53,345 bases of DNA from Planctomycetia bacterium (GTDB taxonomy: Bacteria; Planctomycetota; Planctomycetia; Pirellulales; PNKZ01), in assembly GCA_021413845.1 (NCBI GenBank), contig JAIOPP010000160.1, positions 1 to 53,345 on the forward strand, read 5' to 3'. The notes below the pieces were generated by a model. The model searched no databases. It was not told the DNA's origin and saw nothing but the letters and a program-made list of their open reading frames with translations. Below are positions 721-8,071 of the stretch, one piece after another. A program made the translations under genes and the position numbers. Position 1 is the stretch's first letter; each line of letters starts with the position of its first letter.

Positions 721-2382
721 TTACGAAGCTGCGATCAGCTTCGCGCGAAACCGAGCGACGGCGGCATGGGGATCGGCAGCTTTGAGCACGGCACCGCTCA
801 GTGCGACTTTGCGAATGCCGGTGTTAATTACTTCGTCGATGTTCTCAACTGTGATGCCGCCGATCGCGAAGGCGGGGAGCGTGATCTCGGCCGAGGCTTG
901 GCGAAGGAACTCCAAGCCGGGGAAGTTATCGAATTGTTTCGTCTTCGAAGGAAACGTCGGGCCGAGGCCGAGGTAGTCGGCGCCGTCGGCGACCGCTTGA
1001 CGTGCTTGTTCGATCGAATGAGTCGAGACGCCGATCAGCGTTTGCGGGCCGAGAATTCGTCGGGCGGCGTCGACCGTGAGCTCCTCTTGCCCGAGATGCA
1101 CGCCATCGGCTTCCGAGAGCAGGGCGAGGTCCGGCCGATCGTTCATGATGAAGAGCGTTCGCCGGTCCGGGTGGCCGAAATCGCGGGTCGCTGCGCGCAA
1201 GGCTCGGGCTCGGGTCAGCAGCGTTCGGTCGTCGAGTTGCTTGTCGCGCAGTTGCAAAACATCGACACCTGCTTCGATCAGCGAGCGGGCGATCGCGACG
1301 AACGAGGCTTCGCTCTCGCGCCCGTCGAGCAATACATAGAGCGCGGCCGAGGCGAGTCGGGCGCGTCGCGAACAGTCGTCGCTTTCGATCGAGTAAGGTC
1401 GCGCAGCGCGGGCAGCGGTCGGCGTTTGAGCATCGAGCTGCCGCTGCAAGGTGTAGGCGCGGTAGCGGAGTTGCTCGCAGCGCGATGCCATAACGGGATC
1501 GAGCACCTTGCCGAATTCTTCGAGGCTCCGGAGCGATTCTTGCAGACGGCGGACGTTCGCCGCCGCAACATCGGCCAAATCGAGCCGGATCATCTCCGTC
1601 GGCGTCGAGAGTTCGGTTCCGACGTCGTGAATGGTATCGCGCGCGGCAAGTCGGGCCTTCATCGTCAGCGGCGCGAGCGCGGACGCTAGGTCGTGCCGCA
1701 TTTGCTTGCAGAGCGCGGTGAGCGCACGATCGTCGAGCGCGAAGCGAACATAGTCTTCGACTACGCGCACTGCTTCTCCGGCCCGATTACCGGCGGCGTC
1801 GAGAATGCGGAGTAAGCGAACCTCGGCCGAACCGACGAGCAGGCTGTTCGCCTTCGGAGCAACCGCGAGTTCCGTTGAGCGATCATCGGCCAGCGGCAGC
1901 GAAGGCTCGTCGATCATATCTGCCAGCGGGATCGGCGAGTGGTCGATTCCGTAGCGGTCACAGATCTCGGCCTCCATCGCATCGGGATTCACCCCTCGGT
2001 CGCGGAGCCACAGGCCGACGTCGCCGTCGTCGGTCGCGAGCCCTAGCAGGAGGTGTTCGGTGGCAAGTTGACAGGTGCGCGGGTTTTCGTCGAGGCGGAG
2101 GATCGCGCCGTGGAAGGCGTTCTCAAGCTCCAGTGATAGCGGTCGCACGGCTCCGGCAATTCCGGGCTTCGCCGAATCGCGCACTTCCGCCTCGGGCCAA
2201 CGTCGGTGAATCGTCTCTTCGTCGATCGCCGCGGCTTCCAAGACCTTGGCGGCGCGACACTCCGGCTCGCTCAGCAGGCCGAGTAAGACGTAGAACGGGC
2301 TCAGCTCGTTCCGGTCGCGCGGAAGACGACCGGCGGCGGCATGCAGGGCTCGCTCAGCGGCCGGAGTATATTGATAGGTCAT
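721..2382 (-). CDS. thiE: Clp_N-ThiD2-ThiE fusion, thiamine-phosphate synthase
   Basis: Three parts are visible in 553 residues. Residues 1-62 and 80-142 resemble the two repeats of the Clp N-terminal domain; the second carries ATEHLLLGLA, close to the hallmark of ClpC N-domains. Residues 185-320 match the ThiD2 type of HMP-phosphate kinase-associated domain (LDAAGNRAGEAVRVVEDY, later LCKQMRHDL). Residues 345-553 are a complete ThiE TIM barrel with VLQLRDK, NDRPDLALL, DGVHLGQEEL, GVSTHS, GLGPTFPSKTK and AIGGI. ThiE joins HMP-PP and THZ-P to make thiamine phosphate in the cytosol. ThiD2-ThiE fusions are known in other bacteria; I do not recall a Clp_N part as standard. The ATG at 2382 is the only start that includes the Clp_N repeat. 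The gene is divergent from 2568, and clpC lies one gene further on. ThiE function is near certain; the Clp_N role is unknown. Confidence 0.92.
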   Translation of the reverse strand: MTYQYTPAAERALHAAAGRLPRDRNELSPFYVLLGLLSEPECRAAKVLEAAAIDEETIHRRWPEAEVRDSAKPGIAGAVRPLSLELENAFHGAILRLDENPRTCQLATEHLLLGLATDDGDVGLWLRDRGVNPDAMEAEICDRYGIDHSPIPLADMIDEPSLPLADDRSTELAVAPKANSLLVGSAEVRLLRILDAAGNRAGEAVRVVEDYVRFALDDRALTALCKQMRHDLASALAPLTMKARLAARDTIHDVGTELSTPTEMIRLDLADVAAANVRRLQESLRSLEEFGKVLDPVMASRCEQLRYRAYTLQRQLDAQTPTAARAARPYSIESDDCSRRARLASAALYVLLDGRESEASFVAIARSLIEAGVDVLQLRDKQLDDRTLLTRARALRAATRDFGHPDRRTLFIMNDRPDLALLSEADGVHLGQEELTVDAARRILGPQTLIGVSTHSIEQARQAVADGADYLGLGPTFPSKTKQFDNFPGLEFLRQASAEITLPAFAIGGITVENIDEVINTGIRKVALSGAVLKAADPHAAVARFRAKLIAAS

Positions 2383-2482: not shown

Positions 2483-2523
2483 CTTTTATTTGCCTTGATG
2501 GAAATAAAAGACGGGGGTAGAAT
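2483..2523 (+). promoter_or_regulatory. Sigma-70-like promoter overlapped by a 9-bp palindrome
   Basis: TTGATG at 2495-2500 and TAGAAT at 2518-2523 are separated by exactly 17 bases, matching the -35/-10 layout of a housekeeping promoter (4/6 and 5/6 matches). A perfect inverted repeat, CTTTTATTT at 2483-2491 and AAATAAAAG at 2502-2510, surrounds the -35 box and enters the spacer, so it could be an operator. The AT-rich patch stands out in the surrounding GC-rich DNA. Transcription would begin near 2530, leaving a leader of about 38 bases before the ATG at 2568. This is inference from sequence only. Confidence 0.45.
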
Positions 2524-2567: not shown

Positions 2568-3233
2568 ATGGGTGGGCAAAAGGATGGCCCAAAGCTCCGA
2601 GCGCCAAGCGTGGGGTATGGTTGGGTGTGGCCCGGCTTAGCCCCGCTATGGACCGGCGGGGAGTGGAGCGGATTCGGTTGGGCGGCCGGTTTCGGACTGG
2701 CCCTCAATGGAGTCGTCGCGGCGACATACGTTTACGACGATTGGATCGGTTCGACCTGGACTTGGTCTGCTTGGGCGAGCGTAGGCCTGTTTTGGATCGT
2801 GGGGGCGTTCGCGAATCGCCGCTGGTTGAAACGGTATGCCCGACGAGCTTCCGGCACGACCACGGCGACCGACTTGTATCCCGAGGCGTTCCACGAATAC
2901 TTACAGGGAAATTGGTTCGCGGCCGAAACTAAGTGTCGAAACCTGATCAGGGCCAACCGCGACGACGCGGAGGCGCGACTGTTGTTAGCCACGCTGCTGC
3001 GGCATGTCGACCGACACGCGGAAGCACGCAAAGAACTGGATCTGCTGTCGAAACTGGATTCGGCCGCCAAATGGCGGATGGAAATAGGCCAAGAGCGTAA
3101 GCTACTGAACGAGCGGATCGAGGGAACACTAGACGCAACGACGTCGGACACGAACAATTTGGACGCCGCGAAGGAAGACGCCGAGGCCGGGTCGACGCCC
3201 GCAACCTATCGCGCGACCCGACTTGCGGCTTGA
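2568..3233 (+). CDS. Two-helix membrane protein with cytoplasmic TPR-like segment
   Basis: The 221-residue protein has two hydrophobic segments around residues 38-60 and 65-83, joined by a short Trp-rich turn. A soluble part from about residue 100 follows (YPEAFHEYLQGNWFAAETKC, then an alanine/leucine-rich helix pair), which reads like one or two tetratricopeptide repeats. The C-terminus is acidic and low in complexity. The start is supported by GAAGAAGGAACG just upstream and by the promoter at 2495-2523. I recognise no named family; a membrane-anchored protein-binding role is a guess from the TPR part. It reads toward clpC with a gap of about 170 bases. Confidence 0.75.
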   Translation: MGGQKDGPKLRAPSVGYGWVWPGLAPLWTGGEWSGFGWAAGFGLALNGVVAATYVYDDWIGSTWTWSAWASVGLFWIVGAFANRRWLKRYARRASGTTTATDLYPEAFHEYLQGNWFAAETKCRNLIRANRDDAEARLLLATLLRHVDRHAEARKELDLLSKLDSAAKWRMEIGQERKLLNERIEGTLDATTSDTNNLDAAKEDAEAGSTPATYRATRLAA

Positions 3234-3407: not shown

Positions 3408-5999
3408 ATGTACGAACGTTTTACCGATCGCGCGCGGAAAGTGATGCAACTGGCGAACCAGGAAGCGCAGCGATTCAACCACGAATACATCGGCACCGAG
3501 CATGTCTTGCTCGGGCTCATTAAAGAGGGGAGCGGCGTCGCGGCGAACGTGTTGAAGAACCTCGACGTCGACTTGCGGAAGATCCGCCTCGAAGTCGAGA
3601 AGCTTGTGCAAAGCGGTCCCGACATGGTGACCATGGGCAAGCTGCCGCAAACGCCTCGCGCGAAGAAAGTCATCGAATACTCGATGGAAGAGGCCCGCAA
3701 CCTCGGGCACAACTACGTCGGCACCGAGCATATCTTGCTGGGCTTGTTGCGCGAACAAGAAGGGGTCGCGGCCCAGGTGTTGATGAACCTCGGGCTGAAG
3801 CTCGAAGAAGTTCGCGAGGAAGTTTTGAACTTGCTCGGCCACGGCATCGAAGGAAGTGAAGGGGGCGAACGCCAGCCTTCCGGCGGCGGTGCCGCAGGCA
3901 CGAGCACTCCCGGCGAACCCGGCGCAACGGGCGGCAAGGGATCGAAGGCCTCGAAGACTCCGGCTCTCGATAGCTTCGGCCGCGACCTCACCGAACTGGC
4001 TCGGCAAACGAAACTCGATCCCGTCATCGGGCGCGAGAAGGAAATCGAGCGGGCGATTCAGATTCTCTGCCGCCGCACGAAGAACAATCCCGTGCTGTTG
4101 GGCGAGGCGGGGGTCGGCAAGACGGCCATCGTCGAAGGCCTTGCGCAGCGCGTCGTCGACGGTGAAGTGCCCGAGATCATGACGGACAAGCGGATCGTCG
4201 TGCTCGACTTGGCGATGATGGTCGCCGGCACGAAATACCGCGGTCAGTTCGAAGAGCGGATCAAAGCGGTGATGAACGAAGTTCGTCGCGCGAAGAATAC
4301 GATCCTGTTCATCGATGAATTGCATACGCTCGTCGGTGCCGGTGGTGCGGAAGGGGCGATCGACGCCTCGAACGTGCTCAAGCCGGCTCTGGCCCGCGGT
4401 GAGATTCAATGCATCGGCGCCACCACGCTCGACGAGTATCGCAAGTACATCGAGAAGGATGCCGCGCTTGAGCGCCGCTTCCAAAAGATCTTGGTCGAGC
4501 CGTCGAGCAAGACCGAGACCATCGAGATTCTCAAAGGCCTGCGCGATCGTTACGAATCGCACCATCGAGTGCAGATCACGGACGACGCGCTCGACGCCGC
4601 GGTCGATCTTTCGAGCCGCTACGTCACCGACCGTTGCTTGCCGGATAAGGCGATCGACGTGATCGACGAAGCCGGCGCACGCGTGCGACTCAAGGCGATG
4701 ACCAAGCCGCCGGATTTGAAGGAAATCGACGAGCAAGTCGAACGGCTCAATAAAGAGAAGGAAGAAGCGGTCGCCAATCAAGACTTCGAGAAGGCGGCGG
4801 CGCTGCGCGATCAGGCCGACAAGCTCAAGAAGAAAAAGCAGACGATCCTGAAGGATTGGCGCAACACATCGCGCGAGTCCGACGGCGTCGTCGATAAGGA
4901 AGTCATCGCCGAGGTGATCTCGAAGATGACCGGCGTTCCGCTCACCCGGATGACGACCGAAGACTCGATCCGCCTCATGGAGATGGAAGCCGAGCTGCAT
5001 AAGAAGGTGATCAGCCAAAGCGAAGCCGTGAAGGCGATCTCGAAGGCCGTGCGCCGGAGCCGGAGCGGTTTGAAGGATCCGAAGCGTCCGACCGGAAGCT
5101 TCATCTTCGCCGGCCCGACCGGTGTCGGAAAGACGCACTTGGCGAAAGCGTTGGCCGAATATCTTTTCGGCGATGCCGAGGCGCTGATCCAGATCGACAT
5201 GTCCGAGTATATGGAGAAGCACAACGTCAGTCGGCTTATCGGCGCTCCGCCGGGATACGTCGGCTTCGAAGAAGGGGGCCAGCTCACGGAGAAGATCCGT
5301 CGCCGTCCTTATTCGGTCGTGCTGCTCGACGAAATCGAGAAGGCGCATCCCGACGTGTTCAACATGCTGTTGCAGGTGATGGAAGAAGGCCGATTGACCG
5401 ACAGCTTCGGTCGCCAGGTCGACTTCCGCAACACCGTGCTCATCATGACGACCAACGCCGGTGCCGAAGCGATCAAGAACGAAAGCCAATTCGGCTTCGA
5501 GGCGACGGTCGAGAAGGATGCTTCCTACGACGGCATGAAGCGCCGCGTGATGGACATCATCGAGAAGTTCTTCCGTCCGGAGTTCATCAATCGTTGCGAC
5601 GACATCATCGTCTTCCGCCATCTCACGGTGGAAGACTTGAAGAGCGTCGTCGATTTGGAACTCTCGAAGGTCCGCGAACGTCTGCTCGAGCGCGGGCTCA
5701 AGCTCATCCTCACGGACGAAGCGAAGAAGCTCGTCATCAAGAAGGGCTCGAACACGGACATGGGAGCTCGTCCGCTTCGTCGCGCGATCGAGAACTACGT
5801 CGAAGATCCTTTGTCGGAAGAACTGCTTAAGGGCGAGTTCAACGGCAAGGATACGGTCTTCGTCGACGTGAAGGTCGTGGCCGACAAGAAGCAGTTGATC
5901 TTCGAAGGGCAAGTCACCACGGGCACCGATGCTCCGGTCGCAACTGCGGCTGCCGGCGGAAGCGATGCCGGCGGCGAAAGTGCCGGCTCGACTCCGTAG
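3408..5999 (+). CDS. clpC: AAA+ unfoldase ClpC, ATPase subunit of Clp protease
   Basis: This 863-residue protein has the full ClpC architecture. Two N-terminal Clp_N repeats contain [11 protein letters not shown] and [12 protein letters not shown] Gly/Ser/Pro-rich linker spans about residues 148-180. The first AAA+ module has Walker A GEAGVGKT near residue 231 and an arginine finger region in ALERRFQKI. The middle region has the UVR-like [18 protein letters not shown]. The second AAA+ module has GPTGVGKT near residue 568 and the ClpB-type D2-small domain at the C-terminus. ClpC unfolds substrates and feeds them to ClpP. The start follows GGGAGTTGGAATA, a good ribosome site. No clpP or mcsA/mcsB is adjacent. 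A strong terminator follows, so the gene is probably the end of its transcript. Confidence 0.98.
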
Positions 6000-7201: not shown

Positions 7202-8071
7202 ATGGTCGCAGCGGCGGAAGAACATTTCGAACACAATCACGACCACGATCCCAAACCGGAATCGGATCGCCCGCTCGTCGAGATCGAGGGGATGAGCGTC
7301 CGCTTCGGCAAGAACTGGGTGCTGCGTGACATCAACCTCGTGATTCCGCGCGGGCAGACGTTGGTGCTGCTCGGCGAAAGCGGCTGCGGCAAGACCGTAT
7401 TGATGAAGACGATCATCGGCCTCGTGAAGCCCGTTGCTGGCCGCGTCTTGTACGACGGTCGCAACCTCGAAGATCTCAACGAGCGCGACATCACGAACCT
7501 GCGCACGCGGTTCGGTTTCGTGTTCCAGCAAGCCGCGTTGTTCGACAGCATGACGATCGAGCAGAACGTCGCTTTCCCGCTGCGGCAGCATACGAATAAA
7601 GGTCGCGAAGAGCGTCGGCGAATCGTCATGCAGCGGCTCGCCGAAGTCGGGCTGCCGGATAATGTCTGCTTTAAGAAACCGGCCGAACTCTCGGGCGGCA
7701 TGCGCAAGCGCGTCGGGCTGGCGCGGGCGTTGGCCTTGAATCCCGAGATCATGCTCTACGACGAACCGACGACCGGGCTCGACCCGATCATGAGCGACGT
7801 CATCAACGAATTGATCCTTCGCGTTCGACGGCAATATCCGGTGACGAGCATCGTCGTGACGCACGACATGCACTCGGCTCGCAAGGTGGCCGATCGGGTC
7901 GTGATGCTCTATCCGCAGCTCCGTTTGAAGAATGGAGAGCCGCAAATGATCTACGATGGCCCGCCCGAGGGAATGGAAAAGTCGCCCGATCGGCGCGTCG
8001 TGCAATTCGTACGCGGCGAAGCGGGCGAACGGCTTATGGAAATGCGCGACCGCGGAGTGTTGACCGATTAG
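7202..8071 (+). CDS. MlaF-type ABC transporter ATP-binding protein
   Basis: A complete ABC ATPase of 289 residues. Walker A is GESGCGKT, the Q-loop is FVFQQAALFDSM, the signature is LSGGMRKRVGLARAL, Walker B is IMLYDEPTTGLDP and the switch histidine is in VVTHDMHS. LSGGMRKRV is typical of the MlaF/Ttg2A branch that drives MCE lipid transport. The His/Asp-rich N-terminal 20 residues are unusual and might bind metal or be disordered. The gene starts 10 bases after the permease stop and precedes the MCE protein gene. I see no gene for MlaA, MlaB or MlaC in the window. Confidence 0.95.
   Translation: MVAAAEEHFEHNHDHDPKPESDRPLVEIEGMSVRFGKNWVLRDINLVIPRGQTLVLLGESGCGKTVLMKTIIGLVKPVAGRVLYDGRNLEDLNERDITNLRTRFGFVFQQAALFDSMTIEQNVAFPLRQHTNKGREERRRIVMQRLAEVGLPDNVCFKKPAELSGGMRKRVGLARALALNPEIMLYDEPTTGLDPIMSDVINELILRVRRQYPVTSIVVTHDMHSARKVADRVVMLYPQLRLKNGEPQMIYDGPPEGMEKSPDRRVVQFVRGEAGERLMEMRDRGVLTD

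Follow-up and report, generated by a model that had tools for sequence, protein, structure and literature searches.

A Clp-type N-domain on a predicted ThiD2-ThiE thiamine enzyme across much of a planctomycete class

The gene at 721-2382 of the planctomycete contig analyzed here (JAIOPP010000160.1; 53,345 nucleotides, hereafter the window) raises the question of why an enzyme of thiamine synthesis should begin with a domain of the kind found on Clp/Hsp100 unfoldases, and whether that domain was taken from the clpC gene close by. The features concerned are as follows.

721..2382, minus strand: Clp_N-ThiD2-ThiE fusion protein, 553 aa (ORF with ATG start; Pfam; NF002727)
1948..2382, minus strand: Clp/Hsp100-type N-domain, residues 1-145 (Pfam, AlphaFold helices, PDB matches)
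within 1948..2382, minus strand: the two repeats of the N-domain, repeat 1 at about residues 1-68 and repeat 2 at about residues 83-145
1828..1947, minus strand: linker, residues 146-185 (full-length AlphaFold model)
1441..1809, minus strand: ThiD2 domain (HMP-phosphate kinase family), residues 192-314 (PF17792, E 3.4e-39)
790..1341, minus strand: ThiE domain (thiamine phosphate synthase family), residues 348-531 (TMP-TENI, PF02581, E 4e-55)
2495..2523, plus strand: possible sigma-70-like promoter in the divergent intergenic region, on the side of the TPR-like gene and clpC (consensus match only, 9/12; mean of 0.3 in shuffles)
2568..3233, plus strand: TPR-like protein, 221 aa, between thiD2-thiE and clpC (TPR_19, E 9.8e-5, 23 bits, below the cut-off of 25)
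3408..5999, plus strand: clpC, 863 aa, with a double Clp_N domain (Clp_N 121.8 bits, AAA_2, UVR motif)

Domain make-up of the fusion protein

The larger part of the protein is of the same type as the ThiD2-ThiE synthases (NF002727, PRK02615), and the earlier note on this DNA was right to read it as ThiD2 plus ThiE. In addition to the Pfam matches PF17792 and PF02581, the protein scored 365.7 bits against NF002727, the NCBIfam model of the ThiD2-ThiE type, above its curated cut-off of 335, with residues 186 to 550 aligned to positions 10 to 345 of 349. Since a model of 349 positions has no room for another 145 residues, the N-domain is an addition to this enzyme type. The ThiE domain matched the fold of M. 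tuberculosis thiamin phosphate synthase (3o63; Z 31.2, rmsd 1.4, 205 residues aligned), and 54 of the 55 positions that are fully invariant among 54 aligned members fall in the enzyme part. Judged by sequence, the fusion protein is predicted to combine an HMP-P kinase with a thiamine phosphate synthase. The source genome (167 contigs, 99.59% complete) holds no other ThiE-family match and no other ThiD2 match, classical ThiD (PF08543) gave no match above the cut-off in this genome and two weak ones below it, and ThiC is present; the gene therefore probably encodes the single enzyme that phosphorylates HMP-P and joins the thiazole. A search of the window for a TPP riboswitch gave none at Rfam gathering scores, the only Rfam matches being two tRNAs.

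Residues 1 to 145 belong to the Clp N-domain family, both by profile and by predicted fold. Pfam Clp_N (PF02861) matched the window protein in two stretches (E 2.6e-11; 43.9 bits against a cut-off of 20.7), in agreement with the two repeats proposed earlier, and the motif ATEHLLLGLA cited with them lies at residues 107 to 116 of the ORF translation. In a single-sequence search of the PDB, ClpC2 (9p2p, E 3.9e-5) was the best Clp match, with ClpC at E 0.0012. A profile built from 105 N-terminal stretches (described below) matched residues 1 to 145 of the B. subtilis ClpC N-domain at E 1.4e-28, and the same profile ranked ClpC above ClpB and ClpA chains in the PDB, with ClpC2 (8ad9) at E 2.6e-17. 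Because the 50 matches listed in a fold search with the full-length model all lay on the ThiE part, the N-domain was modelled alone. The AlphaFold model of residues 1 to 150 (49 sequences; pLDDT 90.9, pTM 0.87) contains two sets of predicted helices, at 7-17, 29-37, 43-50, 55-61, 63-68, 84-97, 108-117, 121-128, and 133-143, and the Pfam stretches, these helices, and the Foldseek matches all accord with a Clp N fold of two helical repeats in tandem. All 50 Foldseek matches listed for this model were Clp/Hsp100 or ClpT proteins (best 2y1q, E 5.1e-6; ClpC2 8ad9, E 1.6e-4 with 26% identity). The earlier note had placed the domain at residues 1 to 142 and had named two findings that would speak against it, a failure to score as Clp_N and a fold other than that of the ClpC N-domain; neither was seen, and the placement holds except that the folded part reaches to about residue 145.

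With VIA-align, the model was matched to ClpT2 (4y0c; Z 14.9, rmsd 3.0, 133 aligned), to ClpC N-domains from Z 14.5 downward (for example 8ibp; Z 14.3, rmsd 3.2, 136 aligned), to the ClpB N-domain (1khy; Z 13.9, rmsd 2.9, 128 aligned), and to ClpC2 (8ad9; Z 12.3). The domain thus has the same double-repeat fold as the N-domains of B. subtilis and S. aureus ClpC and M. tuberculosis ClpC1, but the fusion protein lacks the AAA+ ATPase part that ClpC and ClpB carry. ClpT1 and ClpT2 from plant plastids and the mycobacterial ClpC2 have this fold and likewise no ATPase; to our knowledge, neither ClpT nor ClpC2 carries an enzyme, unlike the fusion protein. Among the 50 VIA-align matches listed, 4irf, 4iod, and 4xbi bear malarial protein titles without a Clp name, and 4xbi was named ClpB in the profile search of the PDB.

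The N-domain and the enzyme appear to be joined flexibly. In the full-length AlphaFold model (54 sequences; mean pLDDT 89.3, pTM 0.68), residues 159 to 181 have a pLDDT below 50, and the linker before ThiD2 is modelled as disordered and flexible; its length has a median of 26.5 residues (range, 18 to 93) among 88 proteins and is 43 in the window protein. We tentatively favor a reading, possible rather than probable, in which the N-domain is a docking module that couples the thiamine enzyme to Clp proteostasis. A Clp-type N-domain on a flexible linker would act as a protein-docking module and would bring the enzyme into contact with the Clp proteostasis system, and the level or activity of the enzyme might then follow ClpC/ClpP or ClpB, by turnover or by protection. 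It is improbable that the N-domain instead folds back on ThiD2/ThiE and senses a pathway intermediate or the folding state: a linker of this length would permit such contact, but the linker is of low confidence, the full-length model lends no support to a fixed interface, and no Clp N-domain is known to us to sense a metabolite handled by the protein that bears it.

Spread of the fusion and selection on the N-domain

The fusion is widespread in the class of the source genome. An even sample of the phylum comprised 294 genomes, 153 of them with ThiD2, and 52 of the latter were the source genome or members of its genus, order, or class. A Clp_N-like part preceded ThiD2 in 37 of these 52 genomes and was absent from 15 (judged by eye), which answers the earlier suggestion to count the fusion in planctomycetes and means that the domain is dispensable, a point against the docking reading. 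By family code, the fusion was found in f1 (2/2), f3 (1/3), f6 (30/32), f7 (1/1), and f8 (3/3) and was absent from f2 (0/9), f4 (0/1), and f5 (0/1), both unfused cases in f6 belonging to genus g23. Loci from named genomes were added as the best 80 of 283 related loci, picked by similarity; by title, these 80 came from planctomycete groups except L107 (Nealsonbacteria; perhaps a misbinned contig). Over the even sample and the named loci together, Clp_N (PF02861) matched at E ≤ 0.01 in 95 of 105 N-terminal stretches of at least 120 aa, a scan that leaves aside 24 class loci with fewer than 120 aa before ThiD2; these counts omit the duplicate genomes L076, L138, and L147. One of the 105 stretches (L127) is an unrelated frame. 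Outside the class, a Clp_N-like part was seen in none of the 19 loci read by eye (of 101 out-of-class matches; mainly long frames).

A ThiD2-ThiE tree was inferred from 122 sequences. Left aside were the three duplicates and seven near-copies, three loci whose enzyme part is short, and some members of two larger sets, namely, 8 of the 11 termite-gut rows and 8 of the 19 rows from outside the class. On the best tree, the fused state requires 11 changes among the class rows, while the starred branches alone force just 2 changes of this label, many forks being weak. The scatter of unfused rows among fused ones fits an old fusion with repeated loss, although the change counts do not separate gain from loss. 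At L119, which was counted as unfused, the first ∼40 residues of the N-domain persist in another frame before ThiD2 and are ended by a stop; this looks like a loss in progress, or may be an assembly error. L107 and L136, also counted as unfused, lie near contig ends.

The N-domain is under purifying selection, though weak, and evolves faster than the enzyme. Its dN/dS was 0.10 to 0.46 and below 1 in all of 12 close pairs, which were picked by eye and in some cases share members, the N region being taken as 25 to 165 residues before ThiD2. Since the architecture recurs across the class and the ratio was below 1 in every pair, a chance arrangement is excluded. Pooled pN/pS was 0.28 in the N-domain and 0.27 in the 25 residues that precede ThiD2, compared with 0.08 in ThiD2 and 0.14 in ThiE; the N-domain is therefore 3.7 times less constrained than ThiD2 and no more constrained than the linker. 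These values bear on a second explanation, to which we give somewhat less weight than to docking, namely, that the N-domain is a mostly passive soluble/dimerising front module, weakly constrained, harmless to the enzyme, and often lost. A pN/pS equal to that of the linker would suit such a weakly constrained spacer and tells against docking, and the repeated absence of the domain (the 11 state changes, of which the starred branches force 2) and a mean column identity of 11% among the 105 stretches, flanks included, point the same way. The passive module is opposed by the dN/dS values below 1, by the retention of the domain in members of five of the eight class families sampled, and by conserved residues (R11, E41, and R43; see below) that a mere spacer would not need. 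The Clp identity of the domain, its class-wide spread, and the purifying selection argue for the docking reading.

The clpC neighborhood and the origin of the N-domain

The gene named clpC shares its kind of N-domain with the fusion protein, as the earlier note had it, and contains two Pfam Clp_N stretches; the name rests on domain make-up because no clpC NCBIfam model scored above the cut-off among the 25 matches listed. The note had also called it the second gene downstream on the other strand. It is indeed the neighbor past the TPR-like gene on the opposite strand, but it is downstream solely in window coordinates: relative to the fusion gene, it lies upstream and divergent. Within the genus and order, 12 loci have a homologue of the TPR-like gene. 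No CIRCE heat-shock element was matched with up to 3 mismatches allowed. A genome-wide scan gave five Clp_N repeats: clpC and a second Clp gene, on C21, have two each, and the fusion protein has one. For the second Clp gene, ClpB was the top-ranked NCBIfam match, below the cut-off because the given sequence is partial.

The neighborhood proved to be real and recurrent when shared neighbors were sought, as had been proposed. Among class loci with at least 3 kb of upstream DNA, a divergent clpC stood no more than 2.7 kb upstream in 32 of the 64 fused loci versus 16 of the 17 unfused ones, and the even sample alone, with the same upstream requirement, gave 9/15 and 8/9, respectively. In a wider count, the figures were 47/79 and 20/21, biased toward presence since loci with little upstream DNA entered solely if clpC was seen. 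Adjacency was found in none of the 15 out-of-class loci (∼6 kb upstream). On the Gemmata side of the ThiD2-ThiE tree it was likewise seen in none of the 14 fused rows, 11 of which have at least 3 kb upstream. The head-to-head arrangement at 32 of 64 fused loci speaks for docking; that adjacency is commoner without the domain and absent from all 11 assessable Gemmata-side fused loci speaks against it, and these two observations tie adjacency to the class rather than to the fusion, so that by itself it does not point to the domain.

The earlier note had suggested that the N-domain arose by local duplication, copied from the adjacent clpC and fused to thiD2-thiE. Several observations would suit this origin. 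In addition to the adjacent, divergent clpC at many loci, one locus (L055) has a 297-aa Clp_N-only ORF flanked by clpC and the fused gene, the first repeat of which is ClpC-like (134 bits to the ClpC profile), so that copying of the clpC N-domain does occur there. ClpC also leads ClpB among solved structures in the profile search, and whole-sequence scores of the fused profile were 64.6 to 96.8 bits for ClpC versus 51.3 to 71.9 bits for ClpB; best-domain scores overlapped, at 57.4 to 66.4 bits for nine ClpC sequences versus 37.8 to 71.9 bits for nine ClpB-type sequences, three of which were checked as ClpB. In the reverse direction, a class ClpC profile (53 N-domains) found just 48 of the 105 fused stretches at E ≤ 1e-3 and gave the window protein 11.8 bits, which weighs against a clpC source.

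The N-domain tree (53 rows, including 24 fused domains picked by eye) also weighs against it. ClpC and stand-alone Clp_N proteins formed one clade and eight of the nine ClpB rows another, with the fused domains outside both; on the best tree, fused domains and ClpB lay on one side of a branch with support of 95/90. Four AU tests were made. A clade of fused domains with class ClpC was rejected (p-AU 0.017), as was one of fused domains with all ClpC (p-AU 0.013), both of these tests having been chosen after the tree was inspected; a clade of fused domains, ClpC, and stand-alone Clp_N was not rejected (p-AU 0.301), which leaves some room for a clpC origin, and a single clade of fused domains was not rejected either (p-AU 0.357). 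Long branches and unsettled bootstrap values make this tree suggestive, not final. Moreover, some loci have the fusion without an adjacent clpC and others an adjacent clpC without the fusion, which counts against local duplication. Given the rejected clade and the missing counterparts of ClpC residues E32, R9, and K85 (below), and with profile scores that are mixed, this part of the earlier note is not supported, and we regard a local origin as unlikely.

Other planctomycete proteins also have Clp_N without an AAA+ family, like the fusion protein, but lack ThiD2-ThiE: L189, whose C-terminal part differs from that of the fusion protein, L190, L191, L192, L193, and the L055 297-aa ORF. On the N-domain tree, which does not include the L055 ORF, L189, L190, L192, and L193 stand beside ClpC, and L191 is inside the ClpC group.

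Residues, candidate partners, and meaning of the N-domain

The fused domains have polar residues of their own and lack several of those known from ClpC. Conservation was tabulated for 88 of the 105 stretches, omitting L127, the 11 termite-gut loci, L126, L027, L050, L145, and L143; as these 17 odd or truncated N termini were left aside, it is biased upward. R11 is kept in 79 of 88 domains, E41 in 82, R43 in 70, and H110 in 74; at E109, equivalent to ClpC E106, 74 domains have E and another 10 have D. Where the fused domains have R11, E41, and R43, the planctomycete ClpC rows show K, S, and V, respectively. The family-specific polar residues R11, E41, R43, and E109 favor docking. One report on S. 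aureus ClpC, to which our ClpC numbering was tied via its mutagenesis primers, describes phospho-arginine pockets (E32 and E106) in the N-domain and assigns these and the residues T7, R9, and K85 a role in the resting state (PMC12583610). Only the counterparts of E106 and T7 are mostly shared by the fused domain (T/S in 80/88 for T7). The E32 equivalent is E in just 8 of 88 fused domains and F in the window protein, the R9 equivalent is G, A, or S in 80 of 88, and the K85 equivalent is K in just 7 of 88, so that neither the pair of pocket glutamates nor the set of anchors T7, R9, and K85 is complete. These missing counterparts make ClpC-like binding unlikely and count against docking in that form; since the fused domains lie outside ClpC on the tree, the absence of E32 may be the original state rather than a loss.

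The non-ATPase Clp N-domain proteins known to us, ClpC2 and ClpT, act on or around a Clp system, and with the CLPC1-THIC contact described below they serve as precedents for docking. ClpT is reported to be a peripheral protein of the Clp core, and a CLPC1 trap in Arabidopsis enriched the thiamine enzyme THIC (PMC8889267), by analogy a precedent, in another lineage, for Clp contact with the thiamine pathway. Mycobacterial ClpC2 is reported to repress its own gene and to be a molecular sponge for cyclomarin (PMC10030653). On that precedent, the N-domain might moonlight by competing with ClpC/ClpB N-domains for adaptors, marked substrates, or antibiotics, which we consider unlikely. It would accord with ClpC2 being the best single-sequence Clp match in the PDB (9p2p), with the match to 8ad9 by profile and Foldseek, and with a head-to-head clpC in half of the fused loci that have 3 kb upstream; E32, one of the two ClpC phospho-arginine glutamates, and the anchors R9 and K85 have no counterpart, however, and a sponge placed on a vitamin enzyme has no evident reason.

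Docking would require partners, and candidates are at hand. The reported ligands of the N-domains of ClpC and its relatives are adaptors, proteins marked with phospho-arginine, unfolded segments, and cyclic peptides (PMC12583610). A match to the arginine-kinase family (PF00217) was present in all 42 class genomes searched (of 52), which favors docking and at the same time makes a link between fusion and arginine kinase uninformative. PF00217 is the family of McsB. In the source genome, this match holds one in-frame TAA and may be broken or misassembled, so that phospho-arginine marking there is uncertain, a point against docking. ClpS, the other candidate, is present in the source genome; among class genomes, it was rarer in fused (8/27) than in unfused ones (14/15; Fisher p 7.5e-5), which tells against docking too. 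A link between fusion and ClpS was rejected, as the tree offers just 2 to 3 independent pairs, which puts significance out of reach. On balance, docking is ranked over the passive front module.

The earlier note knew of no described role for the Clp_N part, and the open-licence papers listed (titles and abstract openings) agree with it: among them, neither a Clp N-domain on a thiamine enzyme nor the use of such a domain as a regulatory tag on a metabolic enzyme was described. Clp N-domains are known on unfoldases and on a few proteins serving them, and here one is part of a core metabolic enzyme in much of a class. If the N-domain docks the enzyme to Clp, cofactor supply would be coupled directly to proteostasis, with the genomes that kept and those that lost it as natural controls. 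The fusion would also be a ready test of how a Clp N-domain acts away from its ATPase. It is conceivable, although we think it rather unlikely, that vitamin B1 synthesis in planctomycetes is linked in this way to protein quality control, with an Hsp100 N-domain on their sole thiamine phosphate enzyme through which the Clp machinery or its adaptors set its amount or activity; if true, the docking domain of a chaperone would here be built into a metabolic enzyme as a regulatory tag.

Possible Clp partners of the fused enzyme

Among the 42 genomes of the class that were searched, ClpS was absent from most members of family f6 in which ThiD2-ThiE carries the Clp N-domain and was found in both members of that family without it, a comparison that comprises too few independent pairs for a statistical test. 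In the genome from which the window comes, the arginine-kinase-family match is interrupted by a single in-frame stop codon, so this gene may be disrupted or its sequence wrongly assembled:

L156:2068 (G000:C75), one in-frame TAA inside the arginine-kinase-family match

No in-frame stop was detected within the corresponding match in the other 41 genomes searched.

Genes between thiD2-thiE and clpC

In the window, a TPR-like gene is placed between thiD2-thiE and clpC:

Window 2568-3233, plus strand, TPR-like gene

Homologues were recovered from 12 loci of the genus and order, with the position of the gene being established in the window only. At another planctomycete locus, L055, clpC and the fused thiD2-thiE gene are separated by an ORF consisting of Clp_N sequence, which seems to have arisen by partial copying of clpC on the spot, and the same 297-aa ORF occurs at L195:

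L055:4408-5298, minus strand, Clp_N ORF of 297 aa with three Clp_N stretches, the first repeat being ClpC-like

Variant and remnant N-domains

At locus L119, the N-domain of the thiD2-thiE gene is otherwise gone, and a truncated piece is left upstream:

L119 about 7384-7515, plus strand, truncated remnant of the fused N-domain directly 5' of thiD2-thiE

L103, L109, L112, and further loci with titles of Planctomycetaceae bins, all presumably of termite-gut origin judging from their naming style, encode a longer N-terminal part in which repeat 1 is difficult to recognize and repeat 2 retains ATEHL[LF]LAV.

Other Clp_N proteins in planctomycetes

A second kind of Clp_N fusion and four stand-alone Clp_N proteins without an ATPase were observed at other planctomycete loci:

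L189:3455-4927, plus strand, 491-aa fusion with a double Clp_N at its N-terminal end
L190:2987-3511, minus strand, stand-alone Clp_N protein
L191:2744-3217, minus strand, stand-alone Clp_N protein
L192:2590-3270, plus strand, stand-alone Clp_N protein
L193:2972-3427, plus strand, stand-alone Clp_N protein

The middle part of the 491-aa protein has no family name, and its C terminus is zinc-ribbon-like, scoring under the Pfam cutoff. In the N-domain tree, the four stand-alone proteins grouped with ClpC.
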